Made by a program: the position numbers and the translations under genes. The notes under the pieces were generated by a model, which saw only the letters and a program-made list of their open reading frames with translations, made no database searches and had not been told where the DNA came from. A stretch of DNA of 64,000 bases from NCBI RefSeq assembly GCF_009184895.1, contig NZ_WESE01000002.1, forward strand, positions 186,001 through 250,000, read 5' to 3'. This DNA comes from Nostocoides sp. F2B08 (GTDB taxonomy: Bacteria; Actinomycetota; Actinomycetes; Actinomycetales; Dermatophilaceae). Positions 51,502-64,000 of this stretch are shown one piece after another; position 1 is the first letter of the stretch; each line of letters opens with the position of its first letter.

Positions 51502-52706
51502 AACGTCGATGGTATGCAGACGCCCGCACGCAGCAGCCGCTCGGCCAGGTCAGGTGAGACCGTGACCGGCCCCGCGACCTCGAGGAGCTTCTCGACGTCG
51601 GCGAGCTCCGAGCGCTCCAACGGCACGTCGCGGACCCGGGTGACCAGTCGGAGCGGGTCGCGCTCGAGCCGGGGGCGGAGATGGGCGCGCAGCTCGACCC
51701 GTGTGGTCCCCTCGCGTGCCGCGCGAAGCTGTCCGACCGGACCGAGCGGACCGACCCGCTGACCGGCTCGCGCCTTGGCGGCGAGCAGAGCCGCGACCGC
51801 CTCATCGGGTAGCGCGTCGATGGCGGTCACAAGCGCGTCCCGCACGACGCGGGCGTCGTCGCGCCACGTCGTCGCATCGGCCACGTCGACACCGAGGGCC
51901 AGCGAGGAGCGCGCATTCTCGTCGTCGGCCAGACGGCGCAGGGCTGCCGCGGTCAGCTGCTCCGCAATGTGGTGTCGCGTCCACTGGTGGACCCCGATCG
52001 TCAGGTGGATCGACACCTCGCCCATGGCGGTGGCCGAGTGGAGGTACCCCCGCGGGAGGTACAGCACGTCGCCGGGCGACATGACGAACTCGTCGAGCGG
52101 TGGGGCGCCGGCGGCCTCGTCGACCGCGGCGCGGCGCTGGTCCCACGGCTGGTCACGCAACGGCAGCGGCCAGACCGGCTCGCGGATGCGCCACCGCTTC
52201 TCCCCCTCGACCTGGACGACGAAGACGTCGTGCACGTCGTAGTGGTCGCTGAACCCGGTGTTCTGGGGAGGTGTGACGTAGGCGTTGACCTGGCAGGGAT
52301 GGCCGAGGTCGGCGGCCAGGTCCTGGGTGAAGCGCAGGAGTGGCTCGTAGGAGCGGTGCAAGGCTTGGAGCACGAGCGTGGCACCGGCCTCGAAGTGTCG
52401 CCACACGAGGTCGTCGTTGAGCTGGTCGGCGACGGTGGCCCCGACACCGCCACCACTGGTGAACTCCCGGTCGCCGAACGTCCGTCCGTCCTTGGCGACG
52501 CGCAGGAACGGCGCTCGAAGACCGCGCACGCTGACCAGCTCGTCGACGGCGTCACCGGAGAAGAGGTCCCCGACCGGTCCGGCCGTCGCACGCAACGGCC
52601 GGCGTCCCCAGTGGGCCTCGGCGAACTCGGCGACGGAGACGTCGCCGAGGAGACGGGGGAGAGCAGCCGCGGTGTGCGGCTGCTCTCCCGAGAGGGTATG
52701 CGTCAT
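51498..52706 (-). CDS. JmjC/cupin-type Fe(II)/2-oxoglutarate oxygenase
   Basis: This 402-residue protein resembles the ROXA/NO66 family of JmjC hydroxylases, which hydroxylate residues in ribosomal proteins. The iron triad is His155-x-Asp157 in GFSDHYDVHDVF and His223 in GYLHSATA, within the beta-barrel region (LYLPRGYLHSATAMGEVSIH). The N-terminus (WGRRPLRA) and C-terminal winged-helix-like region fit ROX proteins. Its substrate may be the ribosome as in YcfD, or the repeat protein whose gene precedes it by 5 nt. Start ATG at 52706. Confidence 0.87.
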   Translation of the reverse strand: MTHTLSGEQPHTAAALPRLLGDVSVAEFAEAHWGRRPLRATAGPVGDLFSGDAVDELVSVRGLRAPFLRVAKDGRTFGDREFTSGGGVGATVADQLNDDLVWRHFEAGATLVLQALHRSYEPLLRFTQDLAADLGHPCQVNAYVTPPQNTGFSDHYDVHDVFVVQVEGEKRWRIREPVWPLPLRDQPWDQRRAAVDEAAGAPPLDEFVMSPGDVLYLPRGYLHSATAMGEVSIHLTIGVHQWTRHHIAEQLTAAALRRLADDENARSSLALGVDVADATTWRDDARVVRDALVTAIDALPDEAVAALLAAKARAGQRVGPLGPVGQLRAAREGTTRVELRAHLRPRLERDPLRLVTRVRDVPLERSELADVEKLLEVAGPVTVSPDLAERLLRAGVCIPSTL

Positions 52707-52711
52707 GCGGG

Positions 52712-53071
52712 TCAGGCGCTCCCGTCGGCACCACCGTCAGCGCCACCATCTGCCCCACCGTCGGCGCCGCCATCTGCTCCACCGCCTGCGGCTCCACCGT
52801 CGGCCGGGCCGTGGCCGGCCGCGCCGTCAGCGCCGCCATCTGCCCCACCGTCGGCGCCGCCATCTGCTCCACCGCCTGCGGCTCCACCGTCGGCCGGGCC
52901 GTGGCCGGCCGCGTCGTCAGCGCCACCGTCAGCGCCACCGTCGGCGCCGCCATCTGCTCCACCGTCTGCGCCGCCATCTGCCCCACCGTCTGCGCCACCG
53001 CCTGCGGCTCCACCGTCGGCCGGGCCGTGGCCTGGGTTGGTCAGCTCGTCATCTCCGGGACTGGTCGTCAT
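52712..53071 (-). CDS. Gly-Gly-Ala-Asp repeat protein
   Basis: This 119-residue product starts with a short leader (MTTSPGDDELTNP) and is otherwise built from three blocks. Each block opens with GHGPADGGAAG and continues with GGAD units: seven in the first, four in the second, five in the third. It has about 20 Asp, three His, no Cys and no bulky residues, so it is intrinsically disordered. The ATG at 53071 was chosen because GGAGG lies 5 nt upstream. It directly precedes the JmjC oxygenase gene (5 nt), making it a candidate substrate. No family is recognised; an accidental expansion cannot be excluded, but the leader, ribosome site and in-frame repeats argue for a real gene. Confidence 0.6.
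   Translation of the reverse strand: MTTSPGDDELTNPGHGPADGGAAGGGADGGADGGADGGADGGADGGADGGADDAAGHGPADGGAAGGGADGGADGGADGGADGAAGHGPADGGAAGGGADGGADGGADGGADGGADGSA
52734..52913. repeat. Two tandem 90-bp direct repeats
   Basis: 52734-52823 and 52824-52913 are identical over 90 bp except for one base (A at 52746, G at 52836). Each encodes one 30-residue block of the GGAD protein. The near-identity indicates a recent duplication. Smaller 12-bp units inside encode GGAD. Confidence 0.9.
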
Positions 53072-53089
53072 TCGTGCCTCCATCGGATC

Positions 53090-53109
53090 GGTCGGCCTGG
53101 TTGCCGACC
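53090..53109 (-). terminator. Hairpin between the GlgC-like gene and the repeat protein gene
   Basis: GGTCGGC and GCCGACC form a 7-bp stem around CTGGTT. On the minus strand it lies after the GlgC-like stop and about 20 nt before the repeat-gene start. It could end the upstream transcript or be part of the leader of the four-gene unit. Confidence 0.45.
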
Positions 53110-53183
53110 CCCCATGTCTATCGATGTTCGACGTCGGATGCCACCGCTGCGGGTTGGACAATTCGGACGGACGTTTCGGCCGG

Positions 53184-54413
53184 TCAGGCGCTCGAGCCCG
53201 GCTCCAGGCGTGCACCCGCCGGGACCTCCGCCGACGCGGCGACCGTCGTGTCCCGACCGAGGATCGCGATGTCACGCTCGTGCAGCCGGGTCGACGCCGG
53301 GGTCCCGCCGACCCGTGCGCCGCGACCGACCCGGCAACCGTCGTCGATGATGCTCGTGCGCACCGCCGCCCCGGCGGCGATGACGACGTCCGCGCCGATC
53401 ACAGCGTCCTCGACGACCGCACCCCTCTCCACGACGACCCCCGGACCGAGCACTGAACGACGCACCGTGCCGTGGACGACCACCCCGGCCCCGAGCAGGG
53501 CGTCGTCGACCTCACCGCTCGGACGCACCCGCGCCGGCGGCTTCTCCGGCCACCGGGTCAGGACCGGGATCCCCGGCCGGTCGAAGACGTCGACCTTGCC
53601 TCGGAGCAGGTCGCGGTGGGCCTGGAGATACACCTCGGGGCGGCCGACGTCGCGCCAGTACCCGGTCATGGGAGTGGCAAAGGTCCGCCCCCGGTCGACG
53701 AGCGCCGGCAGCAGATGCTCTCCGAAGTCACCGAGTCCGCTGCTGCCCTCGTCGTCAGCGTGGGACAGCTCGGCACGCAGGCGCGCGAGCAGGCCGAGGA
53801 GCACACCCGGGTCGTACAGGAAGATCTCGGTCGCGACGGTGGTGCCCGCCGGGCGGTCGGGCTTGTAGGCGAAGCCACTCACGCGGCCGTCGTCGCTCAC
53901 CTCGACGACGGCGTTGTGCCGCGCCTCGGACCGGCCGACCTGCGCCGTGACGATGGTGCACTCCGCACCGCGCTCGACGTGGTCTCGGATCACCGGGCGC
54001 AGGTCGAGGGTGAAGACGTGGTCCGCGCTCATGACGACGAGGACGTCGGCAGCGAAGTCCGCGATGGCGTCGGCGAGCTGGACGAGGTTGTCCGCGTTGC
54101 CGGCGGCGAAGCCGCTCTCGGCCGAGGTCCATCCCTCCTCCGGCACGACGCGACGGTAGCCGCCTCTGGTCCGATCCAGATCCCACGGTCTGCCCTGGGC
54201 GATGTAGGGGTCCAGCGTCGAGGCGAGGTAGCTGACGCTGACCCACACGTCGGGGATCCCGCTCCCGGCGAAGCTCGAGAGCGGGAAGTCGATGAGCTTG
54301 TACGACCCCGCGAACGACAGAGCGGGTTTGGCCCGCTCCCGGGTGAGGACGTCCATTCGGGACCCCTCGCCACCTGCCTGGATGATGCCGAGCACCCTCG
54401 GGAAGCCCTCCAT
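53184..54413 (-). CDS. GlgC-like sugar-phosphate nucleotidyltransferase
   Basis: This 409-residue protein resembles ADP-glucose pyrophosphorylase, with the nucleotide-binding GGEGSRMDVLTRERAKPALSF, the sugar-phosphate site around YKLIDFPLSSFAGSG, VVMSADHVF, and a C-terminal left-handed beta-helix (VVVHGTVRRSVLGPGVVVE). The usual allosteric Arg residues of true GlgC are not evident from this reading, so assignment as GlgC is tentative; it may belong to another NDP-sugar synthase group. Start ATG at 54413. It is divergent from the saccharopine-dehydrogenase-like gene with 66 nt between. Confidence 0.83.
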   Translation of the reverse strand: MEGFPRVLGIIQAGGEGSRMDVLTRERAKPALSFAGSYKLIDFPLSSFAGSGIPDVWVSVSYLASTLDPYIAQGRPWDLDRTRGGYRRVVPEEGWTSAESGFAAGNADNLVQLADAIADFAADVLVVMSADHVFTLDLRPVIRDHVERGAECTIVTAQVGRSEARHNAVVEVSDDGRVSGFAYKPDRPAGTTVATEIFLYDPGVLLGLLARLRAELSHADDEGSSGLGDFGEHLLPALVDRGRTFATPMTGYWRDVGRPEVYLQAHRDLLRGKVDVFDRPGIPVLTRWPEKPPARVRPSGEVDDALLGAGVVVHGTVRRSVLGPGVVVERGAVVEDAVIGADVVIAAGAAVRTSIIDDGCRVGRGARVGGTPASTRLHERDIAILGRDTTVAASAEVPAGARLEPGSSA

Positions 54414-54479: not shown

Positions 54480-55829
54480 ATGACCGATCGCGATCTCGAC
54501 GTCGTCCTGCTCGGCGCTACCGGCTTCACCGGGCGGCTCATCGCCGCCCACCTCATCGAGACGGCCCCCGAGCAGGTGCGCCTCGGGTTCGCCGGACGGA
54601 GCCGGGCCAAGCTGGACGCCCTCGTCGCGGACCTGGGCCCGGCGGCAGGGCGTGCCGAGCTCATCGAGATCGACGTCCGCGACTGGGCGGACCTGCAGGC
54701 CCTCGTGGCCCGGACGAAGGTCATCGCCTCGACGGTGGGCCCGTACCTCCGCGACGGAATGCCGCTCGTGCGGGCCTGTGCCGCGGCGGGAACCCACTAC
54801 TGCGACCTGACCGGCGAGGTCCTCTTCGTGCGGCAGTCGGCCGACGAGTGCCACGCAAGCGCCCAGGCGAGCGGAGCCCGGATCGTGCACGCGTGCGGCT
54901 TCGACTCCGTTCCCTCCGACCTCGGCGTCTGGCAGACCGCGCAACGGGCCGCCGAGGCCGGTGAAGGCACCCTCGAGGACACGGTTCTCCTCGTGCGGTC
55001 GATGAAGGGCGGCGTCTCCGGCGGCACGCTCGCCACCGGCCGCCAGCAGGCCATCATCGCCCGTGAGGACCCGGCAGCGCGCACCATCCTGGCCGACCGC
55101 TACTCGCTCTCACCCGACCGCGTCAACGAACCCACGGGAGAGGAGGGCCGAACGCAGGGCTCGCCCACGCATACCGGCACTCGGCGGGGCGCACCCGCCA
55201 TCGGCCCGCTGGCGAAGGTGACCCCCCTCGGACCCGCCGTCGAGTCGTTCGTGCGGTCCGGGCTGGAGAAGGTCTCGGTCCGTCAGGACGAGGAGGGACG
55301 CTGGACGGCACCGTTCGTCATGGCCGAGTTCAACACCCGCATCGTGCGCCGCTCGAACGCCCTCCTCGGCTGGGCCTACGGGCGCGGCTTCCGCTACCAC
55401 GAGGTCACCGACCTCGGACGCTCGGCCCAGGCGCCGTTCCTCGGAGTGGGCCTCTCGGCCGGCCTGATGGCCGGGCTGCTCGGACTGTCCTTCGCCCCGA
55501 CCCGGGCGGTGCTCGACCGCGTCCTGCCGAAGCCTGGGGAGGGTCCGTCCGCCGAGACGATGGCCAAGGGCCGCTTCGTCATGGACGTCGTCGCGCGCAC
55601 GTCGACCGGAGCGGTGTTCCGCACCAGGGTCGCCGCCGAGAAGGACCCCGGCTACACCGGGACGGCCGTGATGATCGGGCAGGCCGCCCTCGCCCTCGCC
55701 CTCGACGGCGACCGACTGCCGGACCGCGCGGGCGTGCTCACCCCGGCGACGGGCATCGGCGGCGTGCTCGTCGAGCGCCTCGTCGAGCAGGGTTTCACCG
55801 TCGACACCCAGCGTGTCGAAGCCCACTGA
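54480..55829 (+). CDS. Saccharopine dehydrogenase-like NADP-binding reductase
   Basis: This 449-residue protein has an N-terminal Rossmann fold (DVVLLGATGFTGRLIAAHL) and a C-terminal segment with a membrane-like stretch (LGVGLSAGLMAGLLGLSF). It resembles the trans-acting enoyl reductase/saccharopine dehydrogenase NADP-binding family found in mycobacteria (Rv2449c-type), some of which reduce polyketide-derived lipids. Signatures are AGTHYCDLTGEVLFVRQS and HACGFDSVPSDLGVW. No polyketide genes lie near, so its substrate is open. Confidence 0.85.
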   Translation: MTDRDLDVVLLGATGFTGRLIAAHLIETAPEQVRLGFAGRSRAKLDALVADLGPAAGRAELIEIDVRDWADLQALVARTKVIASTVGPYLRDGMPLVRACAAAGTHYCDLTGEVLFVRQSADECHASAQASGARIVHACGFDSVPSDLGVWQTAQRAAEAGEGTLEDTVLLVRSMKGGVSGGTLATGRQQAIIAREDPAARTILADRYSLSPDRVNEPTGEEGRTQGSPTHTGTRRGAPAIGPLAKVTPLGPAVESFVRSGLEKVSVRQDEEGRWTAPFVMAEFNTRIVRRSNALLGWAYGRGFRYHEVTDLGRSAQAPFLGVGLSAGLMAGLLGLSFAPTRAVLDRVLPKPGEGPSAETMAKGRFVMDVVARTSTGAVFRTRVAAEKDPGYTGTAVMIGQAALALALDGDRLPDRAGVLTPATGIGGVLVERLVEQGFTVDTQRVEAH

Positions 55830-55896
55830 CCCGGCAACGCTCGCACCGCTAGGGTTGGGCCAGGCGGCTGCACCCATCGACGAAGAGGGAGTCGAC

Positions 55897-56358
55897 ATGA
55901 CCGAGTACGACCCGACGTACGAGAACGCCGACGACGTCAACCCGGTGACGACACTCACCGACGAGGAGTGCTGGGACCTTCTGCGCGACACCGAGTTCGG
56001 ACGGATGGCGTACCACCTCGCCGGCGAGGTGCACATCGTTCCGATCAACTACGCGACCGATGGCACCCGGTTGTACTTCAAGACTGCCGAAGGCTCGAAG
56101 CTCCTCGGCATCGTCATGAACGAGGACGTCGCCTTCGAGATCGACCGCGTCACGGAGAACTCCGCCACCTCGGTGTGCATCCGTGGACGCGCGCACCTGC
56201 TCGAGGGCAGCGAGGAACACGTCGTGGAGCAGCTCCCGCTGCGACCCTGGGTGCCGACGCTGAAGTTCAACGTCGTCGCCATCGACCCGGCGGAGATGAC
56301 CGGGCGGTCCTTCAACCTCCGGCGCCCCTGGACCCACCTGAAGGCCGACGCCGACTGA
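55897..56358 (+). CDS. Pyridoxamine 5'-phosphate oxidase-like flavin protein
   Basis: This 153-residue protein has the split-barrel PNPOx-like fold (ECWDLLRDTEFGRMAYHLAG, HIVPINYATDGTRLYFKTAE, SVCIRGRAHLLEG). Small members of this group in actinobacteria bind FMN or F420 and reduce quinones or other small molecules. ATG at 55897 follows GAGGGAG. It is separated by 67 nt from the gene before and converges on the FHA gene with 15 nt between. Confidence 0.83.
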   Translation: MTEYDPTYENADDVNPVTTLTDEECWDLLRDTEFGRMAYHLAGEVHIVPINYATDGTRLYFKTAEGSKLLGIVMNEDVAFEIDRVTENSATSVCIRGRAHLLEGSEEHVVEQLPLRPWVPTLKFNVVAIDPAEMTGRSFNLRRPWTHLKADAD

Positions 56359-56373: not shown

Positions 56374-57177
56374 TCAGGCCTCCCCTTCCGCGGCCTCCCG
56401 TATGACGATGCGGGTCCAGGCCCCGAGGTACACCTGCTCGCCCGCGGCGATCTCGCGCTTCTGCCCGGGAGGGACCGGGTCGTCAGGCAGCCCGGCCGTC
56501 GCCGACCCGATGTAGGTACCGTTCGCCGAGCCGAGGTCCTCGATGAACCAGCGGGTGCCGTCGGTCGTCAGCTGGGCGTGCCGCCTGCTGACGCCGGGGT
56601 CACCGGAGACGTCGACCTCCGGCGAGATGCCCCGGGACCGCGACGCTCGGCCGACGAGGCTCGAGGTCCGATGCAGAATGACGACGGTGGGCATGCCCGG
56701 GGAGGGCATCGGATCGCTCGAGCCCTGGTCGTGGTACCAGTCGGGATCGATCCACACCTCCGCGACCCAGGGCCGCTCGAGCTCCGGCGTCGGGCTGACG
56801 AACGGTGCGGGGGTCACCTCTGCGTCGGGATCGGCCTCGGGCTCGGCGACCGGTGCTGGTGCTGGCGCTGGCGCTGGCGCTGGCGCTGGCGGCGGATCCG
56901 ACGGCGGCGGCGGCAGGGTGAAGATGGAGGACTCCACCGCCCGCGGCATCGTGCCGGTGGTGTAGTCGTAGCCGCAGGCCTCGCAGAACAGGGCGTCGTC
57001 GGGGTTGGCGGCCGAGCAGTTCGGGCACTGCTGGGTGTCGGGGCGCACCGGGGTCAGATCGGGCGCGGTGGCGTCGGCCTCCGCGGACGCCTCGCTCCCG
57101 GCCTCGATCGCCAACCCGCAGACGTCGCAGTAGTCCTCGCTCTGGCTGGTGTGCCCGTCCGGACAGGTGCGGGCCAT
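56374..57177 (-). CDS. FHA-domain protein with two zinc ribbons
   Basis: This 267-residue protein has two N-terminal zinc ribbons (CPDGHTSQSEDYCDVCG, CPNCSAANPDDALFCEACG), a Pro/Ala-rich linker and a C-terminal FHA domain (SLVGRASRSRG, GVSRRHAQLTTDGTRWFIED, GSANGTYIG), which binds phosphothreonine. It is the last gene of the PknG operon and may serve as its phospho-dependent partner, in the way GarA/OdhI serves PknG in mycobacteria and corynebacteria. No GarA-type phosphorylation ETTS motif is seen. Confidence 0.9.
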   Translation of the reverse strand: MARTCPDGHTSQSEDYCDVCGLAIEAGSEASAEADATAPDLTPVRPDTQQCPNCSAANPDDALFCEACGYDYTTGTMPRAVESSIFTLPPPPSDPPPAPAPAPAPAPAPVAEPEADPDAEVTPAPFVSPTPELERPWVAEVWIDPDWYHDQGSSDPMPSPGMPTVVILHRTSSLVGRASRSRGISPEVDVSGDPGVSRRHAQLTTDGTRWFIEDLGSANGTYIGSATAGLPDDPVPPGQKREIAAGEQVYLGAWTRIVIREAAEGEA

Positions 57178-57179
57178 GA

Positions 57180-58457
57180 CTACCTCCGGATCCGGGTGGT
57201 CTTGGTCGACGCCGTGTCGAGCGCCATCTCGTCGGCGCGCTCGACGGACCGCTTCAGCCGCACCGTGCCGGTCTCGGCGTCCTCGACGTCGACGACCTTG
57301 CGGAGCTTGGCGGTGGCTTCGTCGTTGCCGGTCTGCTCGGCCAGCTGGACCGCGCGCCCGAGCTTCTGGGTCGCGGTGGCGTCATCGCCCGCCGACTTCG
57401 CGGCCAGCCCCTCCTGGATCATCGCGGCCAGCTCGGTCTGACCGGTGTAGTGCGCCACCTGCTCGTCGATCGGCGCGGTGAGCGAGTGGTCGGCGGACCA
57501 CTTGGCCTTGACCAGGCCCTGGGCGTGGACCTGCTCGTGGATGACGAGCTGGACGCGAGCGGCCAGCTGCTCCTGTCCGAGGGCCTTGGCCGCGAGCCGG
57601 ACCGAGACGTGGTAGTCGCGGGACTCGTCCGCCCACGCGCCGGTGGGATACCCACCGGTCAGGTCGTTGATCGGTCGGCGCCTCGAGGTCAGCTCCTCGA
57701 CCGTCGGCGAGACCTGGCGCACGAAGAGGATGTGGGCCCCTTGCGGCGTCCACACCCGCAGCTCGGCCTCGGCGACCCCGCGGGCCATCGAGGTGCGCAT
57801 GATGTCGCGGAACTGATCACTCATCTGGTGCGGCTGCGGGATGATGTCGACGGTCCCGAGCAGGTTGGTCGCGATGCGGCGGATCTCCTCGACCTTCCAG
57901 CTCGTGCCCACCCCTCGGCAGTCGACCTGGTAGACGCCCATGGCACGGCCGATCGCCGCGTCGAGCACCTCCGGGGCCTCGTTGTTCTCCCCGTCGGTCA
58001 GGAGGATGGCGTGCCGCTGGATGACCTGCGGCACCGAGTAGAAGAGCTGCCCGGTCAGGTCCAGCCAGGTGCCGATCGCGGTGCCCCCGCCGCTGGTCAG
58101 CTGGGCGATCGCCCGCGACGCCTCGGCCCGCGTCTGCGGCGACATCCGGACCATGCCAGGGCCGGTCCGCACGTGCGGGTACGCGAGGAACGCCGCGCCG
58201 TTGCCGGACACCACCGCGAAGTACGTCCCGTCGACGATCTCGGCGAGGGCGGCCTGAGCCGCCTGCTTCGCCTGCTCCATCTCGAGGTCGCCCATGGATC
58301 CGGAGGTGTCGATGATGATGATCTCGCCGGCGTCCCCGGCGCCGGTCTGTCCCGCGACGCCGGCGCCCACACACGTGATCGTCACGATGGCGTTGACGTC
58401 GGTGCCCCCGTCGGGGAGGTACTCGTTCTGGTAGACGGTCGCGCTGAACTCGGCCAT
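57180..58457 (-). CDS. vWA-domain protein
   Basis: This 425-residue protein has a von Willebrand factor A domain with the metal-ion site (MIDAS) DTSGSMG (near residue 50) and LLTDGENNEAPE, then a C-terminal part with helical repeats (AAMIQEGLAAKSAGDDATAT and TGTVRLKRSVE). vWA proteins bind partner proteins through a metal bridge. It is placed between the FHA and PP2C genes with gaps of 2 and 1 nt, so it is part of the same signalling unit. Start ATG at 58457. Confidence 0.88.
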   Translation of the reverse strand: MAEFSATVYQNEYLPDGGTDVNAIVTITCVGAGVAGQTGAGDAGEIIIIDTSGSMGDLEMEQAKQAAQAALAEIVDGTYFAVVSGNGAAFLAYPHVRTGPGMVRMSPQTRAEASRAIAQLTSGGGTAIGTWLDLTGQLFYSVPQVIQRHAILLTDGENNEAPEVLDAAIGRAMGVYQVDCRGVGTSWKVEEIRRIATNLLGTVDIIPQPHQMSDQFRDIMRTSMARGVAEAELRVWTPQGAHILFVRQVSPTVEELTSRRRPINDLTGGYPTGAWADESRDYHVSVRLAAKALGQEQLAARVQLVIHEQVHAQGLVKAKWSADHSLTAPIDEQVAHYTGQTELAAMIQEGLAAKSAGDDATATQKLGRAVQLAEQTGNDEATAKLRKVVDVEDAETGTVRLKRSVERADEMALDTASTKTTRIRR

Positions 58458-58458
58458 G

Positions 58459-59619
58459 TCACTCCTCGGGGTCGGCGGGGTCGGCGGTCTGCGATCCAGT
58501 CTCGCCCACCGGGCGGGCACCCATCCGCGCGATCGCGACGCTGATGTTGTCGTGGCCGCCGGCCTGCACCGCCCACTGGACGAGCGCGAGAGCGACCTGC
58601 TCGACGTCGTCGGGGTGGGCCCGACCGGCCGCGTGCACCTGATCGGCCATCTCGGCGGGCGTGGGGGCGTAGTTCCACAACCCGTCGGAGCACACCAGCG
58701 CCCAGCCGTCCTCGATGAGCGGCAGCCGCCCGATCGTCGGGACGACGTCCTCGGTGTCGCGACCCAGCCAGCGCGTGATGGCGTGCGCCTGGCTCGAGCG
58801 GTGCGCCTCCTCGGCGTCCATGCCGGCGGCGATGAGGGCCTCGGCCGCGGAGTCGTCCCGGGTGAGCTGGACCGCCGGACCCGTGTCGGGCACCCAGTAC
58901 GCGCGGGAGTCGCCGATGTTGGCGTGCCAGAGGACCGGACCCTCCGGCTCGGCCTCCACGAGGACGCACGTGAACGTCGCCGACGCGGGGCTCTCGGTGT
59001 CGGATGCGGTATGCGCGACGATCGCCCCCTGCGCAGCGGCGGCCGCGTCCGTGAGGGCTTTGCGGACGGCGGCCTCGCGGGACTCCGGGGTGCCGAGGCC
59101 GTGGCCGGTCGGAACCCGCAGGACGTCGCGCGCCGCTCGTGCCCCGGCGAGTGAGGCGACGTCGGAGTCGACCGAGCTCGACACCCCGTCGAGGACGACG
59201 AGCACGCACCGTTCCCCGGGTGCCTCGCTCGCGACCGTGGCGATGGCGTCCTCGTTGCGGGTGCGCTTGGCCCCGCGGTCGCACACGCCGGCCACCCAGG
59301 ACGCCGGGGTCTCGCGGAAGTGCTCTCGTTCGCTCGGCGCCTTGGTGCCGCACTGCTCGCAGTACAGGTCCTCGCCGACGGTTCCGCCACACTCGGCGCA
59401 GGGTCGGCGGGTGGCCGGCTCACCGGTGTCCGTGAGCAGATGTGTCGGTCGGCTGATCGGCGACGACTCGGACCCCTCGACCTTCAGTCCGGTCTGCGCC
59501 TGCTGCTCGGTGACCTCGCCGAGCTGGGTGCCGCAGGCCTCGCAGAAGTTCGCCCCGTCGGGCACCTCCTCCCCGCACCGCGGACAGGTCTGCAGGCTCG
59601 TTGCCATGGCGTCGCTCAT
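58459..59619 (-). CDS. PP2C-family Ser/Thr phosphatase with two zinc ribbons
   Basis: This 386-residue protein has two N-terminal zinc ribbons (CPRCGEEVPDGANFCEACG, CAECGGTVGEDLYCEQCG) and a PP2C domain: GVCDRGAKRTRNEDAIAT, LVVLDGVSSSVDS, HANIGDSRAYWV, LVCSDGLWNY and AGGHDNISVA. It removes phosphate from Ser/Thr residues, probably those added by the PknG-like kinase. The start overlaps the stop of the kinase gene by 4 nt (59616-59619). Start ATG at 59619. Confidence 0.92.
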   Translation of the reverse strand: MSDAMATSLQTCPRCGEEVPDGANFCEACGTQLGEVTEQQAQTGLKVEGSESSPISRPTHLLTDTGEPATRRPCAECGGTVGEDLYCEQCGTKAPSEREHFRETPASWVAGVCDRGAKRTRNEDAIATVASEAPGERCVLVVLDGVSSSVDSDVASLAGARAARDVLRVPTGHGLGTPESREAAVRKALTDAAAAAQGAIVAHTASDTESPASATFTCVLVEAEPEGPVLWHANIGDSRAYWVPDTGPAVQLTRDDSAAEALIAAGMDAEEAHRSSQAHAITRWLGRDTEDVVPTIGRLPLIEDGWALVCSDGLWNYAPTPAEMADQVHAAGRAHPDDVEQVALALVQWAVQAGGHDNISVAIARMGARPVGETGSQTADPADPEE

Positions 59620-61994
59620 GTCATGCTCCAGTTCCGCACCTGGTTGGCCCGCAGCACCCATTCGACCCGCTCCTCGCGGGTGGCGGCATCCCGGCCGAGA
59701 GCGCGGTAGGTGTCCTCGAGTCCGCTGCGCAGCGCACGCTCGTCGGCCGTCCAGGACCCGATCCGGACCGAGGGCTGCGGCCCCCTGGTCTCGACGATGG
59801 ACAGGGCCCGCTCGAGGATGCGCGTGGTGAACAGTCCGCGCTCGGTCGTGTCCATCCGGGTCGAGGCGATGCTGTCGATCGACTGCGCGAGGACCGTCAG
59901 GTCCTCGCCCGAGCCGTCGAGGAGGATGGCCGCCCGCATCCGGCGGCTCTCGGGGTACCCGCGGGAGGTCGTCGGCACCTGGTCCAGGGCCTCCACAGCC
60001 CCGGTGGTGTCGCGCTTGGCTGCCCGCACGCGGGCCTTGCCGAAGGCGGCCACCGCGACATAGCTGGCGTCGGTCGAGGCGCACGTCGAGTACAGACCCT
60101 CGGCGACGTCCTGCAGTCCGCCACGCTCGCACGCGAGGGCGAGCGCGAGCTTGGGGGCCAGCTCTCCGGGGACCTGGCGGTACACCGCGTTGAAGGCCCG
60201 CTGCGCCGCGGGCCAGTCGCCGCGGACCAGTGCCGAGAGCCCTTGGACCCACAGCGCCCGCCACTCCCAGGGGTCCTCGCGAAGCATCTCGATCGCGATC
60301 GCGTCCGCCTGGTCGGGTGCACCGAGGCGCAGCTGAGCGTCGGCGCGGGCGAGGTGGATCTCCGGCGTGACCGAGGTCGCGTGCCGCAGCGCGAGCAGGC
60401 GCGAGGTCGGGTCCGGGTCGGTGATCGAGGTGACGAAACCGTACTGGGCGTCCGAGGTGTCCGGACGCAGCGTCGGCAGCGTCGACCACTCCAGCGCCCC
60501 GCCGGCATAGGCGGGAGAGGTGAACAGCACCGATGCGGCAGAGGTCAGCGCCGTGCCGGGCGTGCGCCGGGCGACGACCTCGCGCAGCACCCCGAGCAGC
60601 TGAACCCGCAGCTCGTCGGTCGAGGCGAACCGGTCGGCGGGGTCGGGTGCGCAGCACTTGGCGATGAGCCAGTACAGGCTGTCGTACTCCTGGAACAGCG
60701 GCGTCGTCGCGACGGGCGGGAGGCTGTGCACGTAGGTGCCCTGGTACCCGCGGAACTCCATGCACAGCACGAGCAGGGTCCGCCCGATGGTGTAGATGTC
60801 CGACGCGACGGACGGCCCGACCTCGCCGACCTCGGGGGCCTGGTAGCCGACCGTCCCGTAGATCGCCGAGTGCTCGTCGTCGATCCGGCGCACCCCGCCG
60901 AGGTCGATGAGCTTGACGGCGTCACCGACCTGGATGAGGTTGTCCGGCTTGAAGTCGCAGTACACGAGGCCGAGGTCGTGGAGGTACTGGAACGCCGGAA
61001 GCACCTCGTAGACGTAGGCGAGTGCCTGGTCCACCGGCAGCGGGTCGTACTCGCCGCGGTTGGCGGCCATCCGCTCCTTGAGGATCTCCTTGAGCGACTT
61101 GCCGCCGACGTACTCCATGACGATGTACCCCGCGCCGTCATGGGTCACGAAGTTGTAGATCTCGACGATCAGCGGGTGCTCGACCTGCGCGAGGAACTGC
61201 TGCTCGGCGATCGCGGCCGCGAGCGCGTCCGCGTCACCCGCGTTGAGCAGACCCTTGAGGACGACCCAGCGGTCGGAGACGTTGCGGTCGCGCGCGAGGT
61301 AGATCCACCCGAGTCCGCCGTGCGCGAGCGGGCCGGCCACCGCATACTGACCGGCGACGAGGTCGCCCGCCTTGAGCTTGGGGGTGAAGGAGTAGGGCGC
61401 GCGGCACTTCGGGCAGAAGCCCTCGGTGCGGCCGGGGCGGTCGCCCACCGCCCGGCCGACCTCGGCGCCGCAGTTGCTGCAGACACGGCGGTGCTCGGGG
61501 ACGGCGGCATCGGCCCGCACGGCGGAGGCGGCGTCGACCGGCGGGGCGGCCGGGACGTTCGTCAGGCCGGCTCCGAGACGGGCGGCCCGCATCCGCTCGC
61601 TGCCGCTGCGGACCCGCTTGGTGACGCCGGAGTCCTTCGCGCGCGCCGAGCCGATCGCGGCGGACCCGATGCCCGCCGCCGTCGCGACCGAGACCTCGCC
61701 GGACATCGGGCTGGGCTCGTGCGGCGTGGCCGCCGAGGTCTCGAGCGGCTCGGACCCGGCCGGCGCACCGCAGACGGTGCAGTAGCCGTCGGCGATGCGT
61801 CCGGTGCACCCGGGCTGCGTGCACGCGGCACCGGCCACCGCCATGGCGGTCTGGACCTCGGCGGGCGCCTCGGTGGCGACCGTCCCCTGCTCGGCTGCCG
61901 GCTCGGGCTCGGCGGCCTCGCCCGGCATGCCGCAGACCATGCAGTAGCCGTCGACGATCTCCCCGGAGCAGCCGGGCTGCCGGCACTGTGTCAT
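59616..61994 (-). CDS. pknG: PknG-like Ser/Thr protein kinase
   Basis: This 792-residue kinase has two N-terminal zinc ribbons (CRQPGCSGEIVDGYCMVCG, CTQPGCTGRIADGYCTVCG), a rubredoxin-like segment (CSNCGAEVGRAVG ... FCPKCRAPYSF), a kinase domain (about residues 205-470) and C-terminal TPR-like helices. Kinase residues are Lys in VVLKGLLNAG, catalytic YCDFKPDN and IDLGGVRRI. Mycobacterial PknG has the rubredoxin, kinase and TPR domains but no paired zinc ribbons. It phosphorylates GarA to control 2-oxoglutarate use. The start overlaps the stop of the coiled-coil gene by ATGA (61991-61994). Confidence 0.9.
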   Translation of the reverse strand: MTQCRQPGCSGEIVDGYCMVCGMPGEAAEPEPAAEQGTVATEAPAEVQTAMAVAGAACTQPGCTGRIADGYCTVCGAPAGSEPLETSAATPHEPSPMSGEVSVATAAGIGSAAIGSARAKDSGVTKRVRSGSERMRAARLGAGLTNVPAAPPVDAASAVRADAAVPEHRRVCSNCGAEVGRAVGDRPGRTEGFCPKCRAPYSFTPKLKAGDLVAGQYAVAGPLAHGGLGWIYLARDRNVSDRWVVLKGLLNAGDADALAAAIAEQQFLAQVEHPLIVEIYNFVTHDGAGYIVMEYVGGKSLKEILKERMAANRGEYDPLPVDQALAYVYEVLPAFQYLHDLGLVYCDFKPDNLIQVGDAVKLIDLGGVRRIDDEHSAIYGTVGYQAPEVGEVGPSVASDIYTIGRTLLVLCMEFRGYQGTYVHSLPPVATTPLFQEYDSLYWLIAKCCAPDPADRFASTDELRVQLLGVLREVVARRTPGTALTSAASVLFTSPAYAGGALEWSTLPTLRPDTSDAQYGFVTSITDPDPTSRLLALRHATSVTPEIHLARADAQLRLGAPDQADAIAIEMLREDPWEWRALWVQGLSALVRGDWPAAQRAFNAVYRQVPGELAPKLALALACERGGLQDVAEGLYSTCASTDASYVAVAAFGKARVRAAKRDTTGAVEALDQVPTTSRGYPESRRMRAAILLDGSGEDLTVLAQSIDSIASTRMDTTERGLFTTRILERALSIVETRGPQPSVRIGSWTADERALRSGLEDTYRALGRDAATREERVEWVLRANQVRNWSMT

Positions 61995-63136
61995 GCCGTC
62001 TCCCTCCCTCGGGTCCGCGGGATCGGTGCGGTATCGGTCCAGGACTGGTACGTGGTCACGAGCTGGCGCGCCAGCGGCATCGGGCAGGGTTCGCGGCCGA
62101 GGACGGACCGGGCCTGCTGCTCGGCGAGGCGGACGTCCTCCTGGTCGGCGACCCCGATCGCGCGCGCCTTGACGACGAGCGCCTCGAGCAGGGCGAGCAG
62201 GTCGTCGTGCTCGTCGAGAGCCTCGGCGTACTCCTTCTCGGCGAAGCCGATCGCGCGCGAGACACGCTCCAGGCGGTCGATGTATGCGGTGATCGCCGCA
62301 GGCGTCGACGGCACCGGACCGAGGGCGGCGACGTCGGGAACCGCATACCGCGGCGCGGGCTGGACGGTCCGGACGGTGCGCTCGACGAGCTCGGTGAGGT
62401 CGGACTGGCGCTGCTCCAGCCGGGCCCGCATCCGCCGGGCGGTGGCGAGCGCATCCCTGGCCTCGCGACGCTGGGCGTTGCCGACGATGAGGTCGCGCTC
62501 CATGCGCGCCAGCTCGTGCTCGAGCGGACCGATCAGACCTCCGACGTCGGCCCCTCGCTGGACCCGGGCGCCCACGTCGGCGACCCTGGTGGCCAGGGCC
62601 TTCCACTTGTCGGCGACCCGTTCGCGGGCACCCGCGGGCTCGAGGAGGATCTGGTCGCGCAGCCGCTCGATCGCCGCGCGCGCCGACTTGACCCGCGCGA
62701 TCTGCGCGTCCGCCGCGGGGTCGAGCGCGAGCTTGACCCGCACCTGGCTCGCGAGGGCGTCCGAGAGCCGGCAGGCCTCCGGGAGGGAGACGGTCAGCCC
62801 TCCCGCCGCCGCGGTGTCGAGCCGACCCCAGAGCAGTGAGGACAGCTGTTCGCGCTCCGTGACGCCGACGCGTCCGCCGTCCCAGACCTCGAGGAGACGG
62901 CGGTTGCGCTCGGAGACCGCCTGCCACAGCGCCATGGACAAGGTCATGTCGCTCGTCAGCTCGGTCCGTCGTTCCGAGCCCAGGGCGGCGGCGTCGAGCT
63001 CGTCCAGCTCGCTGCGGCGGGCCCGGAGCCACTCGTCGAGCAGTTGCAGGTACGCCTGCATCTCCTGTGGCTCGACGGGCTCGCCGAGCCGACCGGGGGC
63101 ATGGGGCGCCCGGACCGAGCTGATCGCCGGGGACAT
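61991..63136 (-). CDS. Coiled-coil protein between the GlnH-like and PknG-like genes
   Basis: This 381-residue protein is rich in Arg, Glu, Ala and Leu, predicted to be mostly helix with long coiled coils (LEHELARMERDLIVGNAQRR, EARDALATARRMRARLEQRQ). It has no signal peptide and no transmembrane segment. In mycobacteria the gene here is glnX, a membrane sensor joining GlnH to PknG; this protein takes that place but lacks its membrane parts. It may organise the kinase complex. Start ATG at 63136; the GlnH-like stop is 1 nt upstream. Confidence 0.75.
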   Translation of the reverse strand: MSPAISSVRAPHAPGRLGEPVEPQEMQAYLQLLDEWLRARRSELDELDAAALGSERRTELTSDMTLSMALWQAVSERNRRLLEVWDGGRVGVTEREQLSSLLWGRLDTAAAGGLTVSLPEACRLSDALASQVRVKLALDPAADAQIARVKSARAAIERLRDQILLEPAGARERVADKWKALATRVADVGARVQRGADVGGLIGPLEHELARMERDLIVGNAQRREARDALATARRMRARLEQRQSDLTELVERTVRTVQPAPRYAVPDVAALGPVPSTPAAITAYIDRLERVSRAIGFAEKEYAEALDEHDDLLALLEALVVKARAIGVADQEDVRLAEQQARSVLGREPCPMPLARQLVTTYQSWTDTAPIPRTRGRETA

Positions 63137-63137
63137 C

Positions 63138-64000
63138 TCAGCCCCGCCCGTAGACCGGAGTGGGCTGTCCTGTGCCCTCGCCGAGGGTCGGCGCGAGCCA
63201 GCGTTCGTAGGCGGCCTGCCAACGTCCGTCGTCGCGCATCTGCTCGAGGACGCCGTTGATGAAGGCGACCAGATCCGTGTCGTCGGCATTGACCCCGATG
63301 CCGTACGGCTCCTCGGTGAAGGCATCGCCGGAGAGGACCACCGCATACGGGTCCTGCGCGGCCAGACCGGCGAGGACGGTGTCGTCACCGGTGATCGCGT
63401 CGACCTCGCCGCGCTGGAACAGGACGAGGCACCCGGTGTGGTTCGAGGATCCGACGGGCACCGCGTCGGGTGCGAGGCGCATGAGGTTCTCCATGCTCGA
63501 GGTCGCGTTCGGCGCGCACACCCGCCGATCGGCGAGGCTGTCCAGGCCGGTGATGTCCGAGCCCTGCCGGACGAGGAGCTTCTGTCCCGAGCGGTAGTAC
63601 TCGGCGGAGAACGCGATCTCCTCCCAGCGCGAGCAGGTCATCGTCATGTTGCGCACGACGATGTCGACGTCGCCGCTCTCTAGCACGGGGATCCGGTCGG
63701 CGGCGGTGATGACGGTGAGCTGGATTCGTTCGGGGTCGCCGAAGATCGCCTCGGCCACGGCGCGGGCCATGTCGATGTCGAATCCCTCGATGTCCCCGGT
63801 CTGGGGGTTGCGGGAGCCGAGCAGGAAGGTGTCGGCCGAGACGCCGACGATGAGACGGCCCCGATCCTGGATCTCGGCCATCGTCGTGCCGTCGGGCATC
63901 GACCCGGGATCCGGGAGGGGGCTGAGCGGGTCATAGGACTGGGTGGCGTTGTCGCACGTCGGCGGGGCGGGCGCCGACGGGGCCGACGTGGCCGCGGTGG
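63138..64000 (-). CDS. GlnH-like amino-acid-binding lipoprotein (5' end beyond window)
   Basis: This open frame continues past the window end, so the N-terminus is missing. The visible 287 residues are a type-2 solute-binding protein (LIVGVSADTFLLGSRNPQTG, IEGFDIDMARAVAEAIFGD, RRVCAPNATSSMENL, YEPYGIGVN-like EEPYGIGVNADD) of the glutamate/glutamine group. Upstream of the core is an acidic Pro/Ala/Ser stretch typical of lipoprotein linkers. In mycobacteria GlnH senses Asp/Glu and signals via GlnX to PknG rather than feeding an ABC importer. No permease is in view, supporting such a role. Confidence 0.85.
   Translation of the reverse strand, partial: TAATSAPSAPAPPTCDNATQSYDPLSPLPDPGSMPDGTTMAEIQDRGRLIVGVSADTFLLGSRNPQTGDIEGFDIDMARAVAEAIFGDPERIQLTVITAADRIPVLESGDVDIVVRNMTMTCSRWEEIAFSAEYYRSGQKLLVRQGSDITGLDSLADRRVCAPNATSSMENLMRLAPDAVPVGSSNHTGCLVLFQRGEVDAITGDDTVLAGLAAQDPYAVVLSGDAFTEEPYGIGVNADDTDLVAFINGVLEQMRDDGRWQAAYERWLAPTLGEGTGQPTPVYGRG

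Follow-up and report, generated by a model that had tools for sequence, protein, structure and literature searches.

A Ten-Gene PknG Operon of Nostocoides sp. F2B08 and Its Possible Function as a Phospho-Switch

Gene Organization of the PknG Operon

The window analyzed here is a stretch of 64,000 nucleotides from Nostocoides sp. F2B08 (positions 186001-250000 on a contig of 814 kb). At its end lies an operon around the gene of the protein kinase PknG, which we propose, with even confidence, to encode a phospho-switch. The window end cuts glnH, and the contig continues beyond it. The operon is on the minus strand and comprises at least ten genes, which in the direction of transcription are TelA-X185-AAA-GlnX-GlnH-CC-PknG-PP2C-VWA-FHA, where CC is a coiled-coil protein and X185 a protein of 185 aa. 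Six of them (GlnH-like, CC, PknG, PP2C, VWA, and FHA) had been described as tightly packed in an earlier sequence-only reading, and the Pfam matches and junctions confirmed this; AAA, X185, and TelA had been missed because of the window edge. The junctions from GlnH through CC, PknG, PP2C, and VWA to FHA measured +1, -4, -4, +1, and +2 nt. The GlnX gene lies outside the window, 30 nt upstream of glnH, and the upstream end of the operon is TelA, ~5.2 kb past the window edge. The genes are listed below. Those beyond the window are given on the scale of locus L002, whose coordinate is the window coordinate minus 54000.

56374..57177, minus strand: FHA protein, 267 aa (Pfam FHA 3.6e-11, DZR 1.2e-7)
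57180..58457, minus strand: VWA protein, 425 aa (Pfam VWA 6e-9, VWA_3_C 1.5e-18)
57183..57230, minus strand: C-terminal tail of the VWA protein, putative phospho-switch peptide (S[TV]xT conservation)
58459..59619, minus strand: PP2C phosphatase, 386 aa (Pfam PP2C_2 4e-10, DZR 2.4e-8)
59616..61994, minus strand: PknG, 792 aa (PknG_rubred, PF16919, 5.7e-24; kinase, PF00069, 1.3e-28; PknG_TPR, PF16918, 9.6e-46)
61991..63136, minus strand: CC, all-helical elongated protein, 381 aa (no Pfam match)
63138..64000, minus strand: GlnH-like lipoprotein, 321 aa, gene running to 64103 on the window scale (SBP_bac_3 5.7e-27)
L002:10134-11468, same strand as the operon: GlnX (NCBIfam NF058618 2.7e-68)
L002:11461-13182, same strand: AAA ATPase (AAA 5.7e-17, AAA_lid_6 5.7e-17)
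L002:13205-13762, same strand: X185, 185 aa (no named Pfam or NCBIfam family)
L002:13788-15206, same strand: TelA (PF05816 2.4e-91)

The kinase has the rubredoxin, Hanks kinase, and PknG-type TPR parts of PknG, and TelA belongs to the PF05816 family. On sequence inspection, the active-site motifs of the kinase, the FHA domain, and the AAA ATPase were intact, as were the metal sites of PP2C and of the VWA protein (DxSxS..T..D). An Rfam search around the 5' end of TelA gave no match.

Conservation of the Operon in Actinobacteria

PknG_rubred matches were present in 111 of 296 genomes of the class, and 72 loci were hand-picked from these for spread, with two large genera thinned. PknG scored more than 400 bits in 70 of the 72. 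GlnX, GlnH, PknG, PP2C, VWA, and FHA occurred together in 39 of these 70 loci (partners each >100 bits), and 8 of the 39 also had TelA. Another 17 had GlnX-GlnH-PknG but no PP2C, VWA, or CC, and the remaining 14 were partial or different. The full ten-gene order was found in 8 of the 72 class loci. Within the order, 30 of 248 genomes had PknG_TPR matches; among the 20 loci fetched, 17 showed the full ten-gene order, one was cut by the contig start, and two were shorter. Together with the window, this gave 26 full ten-gene loci. The genes form one conserved operon, as the earlier reading had supposed. That reading was mostly right in its observations and half right in its interpretation, and the operon proved larger and more strongly conserved than it had assumed. 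Most junctions in these loci permit overlaps of -4 nt, which are possible rather than proven because the start-codon picker favors the start nearest the previous stop.

Moreover, a search of named genomes with X185 returned 319 encoding stretches, of which 80 were kept. These came from Nocardioides, Kribbella, Pimelobacter, Enemella, Propioniferax, Mobilicoccus, Intrasporangiaceae, and other taxa. Of the 80 relatives, 53 had the complete run of nine genes from TelA to VWA, and many of the remaining ones were cut by the 10 kb flanks or by contig ends. Other lineages retain GlnX, GlnH, CC, PknG, PP2C, VWA, and FHA. A plasmid search with the VWA protein yielded a single record, a Nonomuraea replicon of 11.85 Mb that lists no genes at the match. 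"Streptomyces-like" and "Mycobacteriaceae-like" are used below as working labels of this analysis, assigned by size and gene content.

The C-Terminal Tail of the VWA Protein

The last residues of the VWA protein are DEMALDTASTKTTRIRR. The motif S[TV]xT was found close to the C terminus in 103 of 115 VWA proteins, and in 103 of the 105 whose C terminus was complete and unmasked. Among the 12 proteins without it, ten were cut or masked and two (L030 and L059) differed. Streptomyces-like VWA tails read DEMTLETRSTKTVRVKK. In 89 of 102 tails, the third residue after the last Thr (T+3) belonged to the set I/V/L/M, which many FHA domains prefer at this position. Conserved Ser/Thr residues were also present in the N-terminal extension of PknG (S111, S116, S122, T125, S132, and T145). 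In published PknG, the autophosphorylated N-terminal region recruits the FHA substrate, according to the passage on it in PMC8546545. The tail is a nearly invariant Ser/Thr peptide at the end of the chain, and the same operon encodes a kinase, a PP2C, and an FHA protein. It is therefore a good candidate for a switch substrate, to be phosphorylated by PknG, read by FHA, and reset by PP2C. The conservation of this tail is a new observation of the present work.

Zinc Ribbons and the FHA Protein

The sequence-only reading had placed two N-terminal zinc ribbons on each of the kinase, the phosphatase, and the FHA protein, and all three pairs were found. In PknG, the two units (61932-61985 and 61770-61823) are additional to the known rubredoxin (61404-61481). 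They were matched by no Pfam ribbon model and were identified by their Cys pattern and its conservation, the Cys columns being kept in 83-90% of the 77 sequences (out of 91) that passed the filter. PP2C has its two units at 59533-59586 and 59350-59400 together with the metal-site motifs, and two units were present in 78 of 83 orthologues. The units of the FHA protein lie at 57118-57165 (assigned by position; C-x3-H...C-x2-C) and 56974-57027, followed by a Pro/Ala-rich linker and an FHA domain with the GR/SRRH/NGT motif. Ribbon counts of FHA proteins in the ten-gene group (two units in 37 of 66, one in 8, none in 21) include genes cut by locus ends and were not used as evidence. The VWA protein and CC have no ribbons.

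The PknG ribbons followed the partner genes. In all surveyed loci, N-terminal ribbons were found in 120 of the 129 PknG genes that have PP2C or VWA as neighbors, compared with 2 of the 19 that do not; two further PknG genes had no recognizable kinase start. When the X185-found relatives were left out, the counts became 59 of 68 with such neighbors and 2 of 19 without them. A Fisher test over all loci gave 5.5e-14, a value to be read with the fact that related genomes are not independent. This association gave mild support to the earlier suggestion of a common tag, although an association is not proof, and it suggests that the ribbons are linked to the partner proteins, which would fit a shared recruitment tag.

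A GarA/OdhI homologue was found on a separate contig (C43) of the same genome, with 180 bits. The operon FHA protein is thus an additional one, since the genome has its own GarA homologue elsewhere. It was also considered as a local OdhI and rejected, as it reached 29 bits against the NCBIfam OdhI cut-off of 200; no ETTS-like N-terminal tail was seen in it.

The Probable Sensing Side: GlnX, GlnH, and CC

The earlier statement that a coiled-coil protein takes the place of GlnX was false, and it arose because the window ends inside glnH. GlnX lies directly upstream of glnH and has four transmembrane-like segments. Its match to NF058618 reached 231 bits, slightly below the curated cut-off of 250 bits. 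The GlnH pocket was compared at the positions given for Asp-binding GlnH in the part of PMC6069109 that describes it. R147, R169, and D250 were kept, and S164, T162, and W232 were replaced by T, N, and H, respectively. For these reasons the GlnH ligand is likely an amino acid, with Asp/Glu not assured.

Among the 68 relatives with both AAA and CC inside the locus, GlnX was matched in 65 and GlnH in 60. In the eight GlnH-less relatives, AAA and CC are 0.9 to 1.5 kb apart. Any gene readable in this interval encoded a shorter or divergent GlnX-like membrane protein, and the other genes were kept. These loci of the ten-gene type were L158, L163, L167, L174, L176, L177, L181, and L184; in several of them, the GlnX-like protein was shortened or matched poorly. 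The system can thus change its input, and the cytosolic part stays when GlnH is gone.

CC is an extra conserved partner and not a stand-in for GlnX. A profile built from the ten-gene loci only found CC in 31 further loci outside that group, always on the pknG strand and directly 5' of pknG, and no other open reading frame up to E=10. The AlphaFold2 model (43 sequences; predicted local distance difference test, pLDDT, 91.7; predicted template modeling score, pTM, 0.59) showed a long helical protein with helices of 59 and 49 residues, and the fold search returned no PDB match at E<=0.001. The position of CC is that expected of a spacer lying between GlnX and PknG, and we inferred such a role for it.

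TelA and X185

X185 exceeded 240 bits in 9 of the 296 class genomes, which were the same nine that have ten-gene loci, and 34 others had weaker matches only. No consistent named family from Pfam or NCBIfam was obtained for X185 in 24 orthologues, five relatives outside the operon also had no family match, and no PDB structure was matched in the fold search (E<=0.001). Outside the PknG operon, X185 relatives adjoin TelA in 6 of 8 loci, so that X185 looks like a general partner family of TelA without a Pfam name. Such relatives beside TelA, without a PknG operon, were seen in L189, L190, and L193-L196, several of them with an N-terminal hydrophobic stretch.

A Second PknG-Like Locus and the PknG Tree

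Streptomyces-like genomes have a second locus (L024:4381-11967, also L028). It encodes a trypsin-like helical protein, a PknG-like kinase with rubredoxin and TPR, a VWA protein with a C-terminal ribbon, a short membrane protein (weak GlnX match, E=0.0049), and a solute-binding lipoprotein. A domain common to this trypsin-like protein and CC was considered and rejected as not significant (E=0.13 and 1.1, with the set size taken as 1000). The combination of a PknG-like kinase, VWA, a membrane protein, and a binding protein thus seems to be a plan that can be reused.

A PknG tree of 100 genes was rooted on this second locus (two paralogues). The ten-gene loci formed one clade (support 0.98). The 13 Mycobacteriaceae-like loci without PP2C and VWA formed a clade nested among genomes with the larger operon (enclosing clade 0.99) and sister to the Streptomyces-like group (support 0.49). 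Since their clade sits inside genomes with the larger operon, the tree favors the short GlnX-GlnH-PknG operon of Mycobacteriaceae-like genomes as a reduced form.

Proposed Mechanism and Alternatives

From the observed gene content and order, domains, active-site motifs, conservation in actinobacteria, and conserved VWA tail, we proposed the following mechanism, to which we give an even chance. GlnH would bind an amino acid outside the membrane, and GlnX would relay the binding state across the membrane to the TPR region of PknG, a route already proposed in publications on mycobacteria and corynebacteria. PknG would then phosphorylate the VWA Ser/Thr tail and sites in its own N-terminal extension, and the FHA protein would bind the resulting phosphothreonines. 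The zinc ribbons of PknG, PP2C, and FHA may help the kinase to stay together with its eraser and reader. The helical CC would serve as a spacer or scaffold between GlnX and PknG, and PP2C would reset the switch. The output would be the TelA-X185-AAA set: the state of VWA and FHA would gate the AAA ATPase, which would act on TelA-type functions, probably in envelope or anion stress.

Several points weigh against this proposal. The placing of AAA and TelA as the output comes from gene order, and an input or an independent stress function is equally possible. Two side-chain contacts of GlnH are changed (T162 to N and W232 to H), with the backbone-binding residues kept or conservatively changed. 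The root of the PknG tree is an assumption on two paralogues, and the deep support is weak (0.46-0.68). Furthermore, 9 of the 129 PknG genes with partners have no N-terminal ribbons, including six loci of one family (L047-L049, L052, L054, and L056), and the ribbons are therefore not essential everywhere. The phosphorylation and binding steps given above are predictions.

We tentatively extended the phospho-switch proposal to the origin of PknG. PknG may have begun as the kinase of a larger TerY-P-like machine, in which GlnX and GlnH feed a ribbon-bearing kinase-phosphatase-FHA set, the VWA STKT tail is the common substrate, and a TelA-AAA effector is gated. The mycobacterial three-gene operon would then be a stripped-down remnant, with GarA at another locus having taken over as substrate.

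A somewhat unlikely alternative is a stress or defense device of the TerY-P type, with kinase, PP2C, and VWA as the switch, TelA and AAA as the effector, and amino-acid sensing as a late add-on. The TelA and AAA ATPase genes of the operon fit this, as do the Streptomyces-type paralogous loci, in which a trypsin-like protein accompanies a PknG-like kinase and VWA. Gene content is typically hypervariable in defense loci, and the broadly conserved gene order here differs from that. In addition, the PADLOC hits to the kinase came from general kinase families, and those to PP2C and AAA were weak. The TerY-P triad, as described in the relevant passage of PMC11090510 (citing Anantharaman 2012), combines VWA, PP2C, and a Ser/Thr kinase with a zinc ribbon and is tied to tellurite resistance. 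VWA, PP2C, and kinase are likewise adjacent here, but no zinc ribbon or OB fold lies at the kinase C terminus, which is TPR; the ribbons and the rubredoxin are N-terminal. An actinobacterial theme around GAP1-N2, with a zinc-ribbon kinase, PP2C, and a standalone VWA (section 29 of PMC7159879), also speaks for this alternative.

It is rather doubtful that the ribbons bring the three proteins bearing them onto a single scaffold (CC or VWA) and so form a signaling particle in which CC replaces GlnX. The ribbons on three proteins, their conservation and tie to partner genes, and the position of CC directly 5' of pknG in 31 of 31 further loci agree with such a particle; against it, GlnX is present, VWA and CC have no ribbons, and in some lineages PknG lacks ribbons although the partners are there. 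Metabolic control of the canonical PknG-GarA kind, with the local FHA as an OdhI-like inhibitor of 2-oxoglutarate dehydrogenase, is improbable, since the GarA homologue lies elsewhere and the operon FHA shows neither the OdhI score nor the tail, even though GlnX-GlnH-PknG and a match to the E1 component of 2-oxoglutarate dehydrogenase are present in the genome. The link from Asp/Glu to 2-oxoglutarate that the earlier reading mentioned is uncertain for this operon, given the separate GarA/OdhI homologue and the two differing GlnH contacts. PknG may control the separate GarA in parallel.

Neighboring Genes

A pyridoxamine 5'-phosphate oxidase-like gene (PF12900, window 55813-56358, plus strand) runs toward the operon from its 3' side and leaves 15 nt to the stop codon of FHA. 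A long reading frame of Gly-Gly-Ala-Asp repeats (window 52552-53275), which resembles a low-complexity repeat or a disordered linker, lies upstream of a JmjC/cupin-like gene and adjoins a sugar-nucleotidyltransferase-like gene.

Comparison With Known Systems

PknG has been studied mostly as a three-gene nutrient sensor acting on GarA/OdhI, and the ten-gene operon suggests that the mycobacterial version is possibly only part of a larger machine. If many actinobacteria beyond the Mycobacteriaceae-like sample pair PknG with a dedicated phosphatase, a reader, and a VWA protein with a candidate phospho-tail, many of them also with TelA-AAA, then the ancestral substrate, the phosphatase, and the stress link become directly testable in harmless soil bacteria. 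The operon joins the literatures on PknG metabolic control and on TerY/TelA stress switches. In the open-licence literature on PknG with VWA/PP2C/FHA, TerY, TelA, or zinc ribbons, no joint treatment and no description of this operon were found. PknG is not named in the TerY-P passage of PMC11090510 or in the GAP1-N2 section of PMC7159879.

The closest relative is the GlnX-GlnH-PknG-GarA/OdhI pathway of Mycobacterium and Corynebacterium, in the published form of a glnX-glnH-pknG operon with GarA/OdhI as substrate (relevant parts of PMC6069109, PMC8546545, and PMC9769921). It shares with the present operon the rubredoxin/kinase/TPR build of PknG, the GlnH lipoprotein, the GlnX with four transmembrane segments, and the location in one operon. 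The differences here are CC between glnH and pknG, PP2C, VWA, and FHA downstream, TelA-X185-AAA upstream, the N-terminal ribbons of PknG, and the changes in the GlnH pocket. With the TerY-P triad, in the passage cited above, the operon shares neighboring genes for VWA, PP2C, and a ribbon kinase, linked to tellurite-type genes and an AAA ATPase. However, the kinase here is PknG with N-terminal ribbons, an amino-acid sensor and an FHA reader are added, and TelA stands instead of Ter proteins. The GAP1-N2 theme, as given in section 29, likewise has a ribbon kinase beside PP2C and VWA in actinobacteria, but none of the ten genes here was recognized as a GAP1/GTPase gene, and PknG takes the place of transmembrane or beta-rich kinases. 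Finally, the TelA-XpaC pair of Firmicutes, in the part of PMC12791056 that describes it, differs in that X185 has no named Pfam or NCBIfam family, and resembles TelA-X185 in that TelA stands beside a small partner gene.

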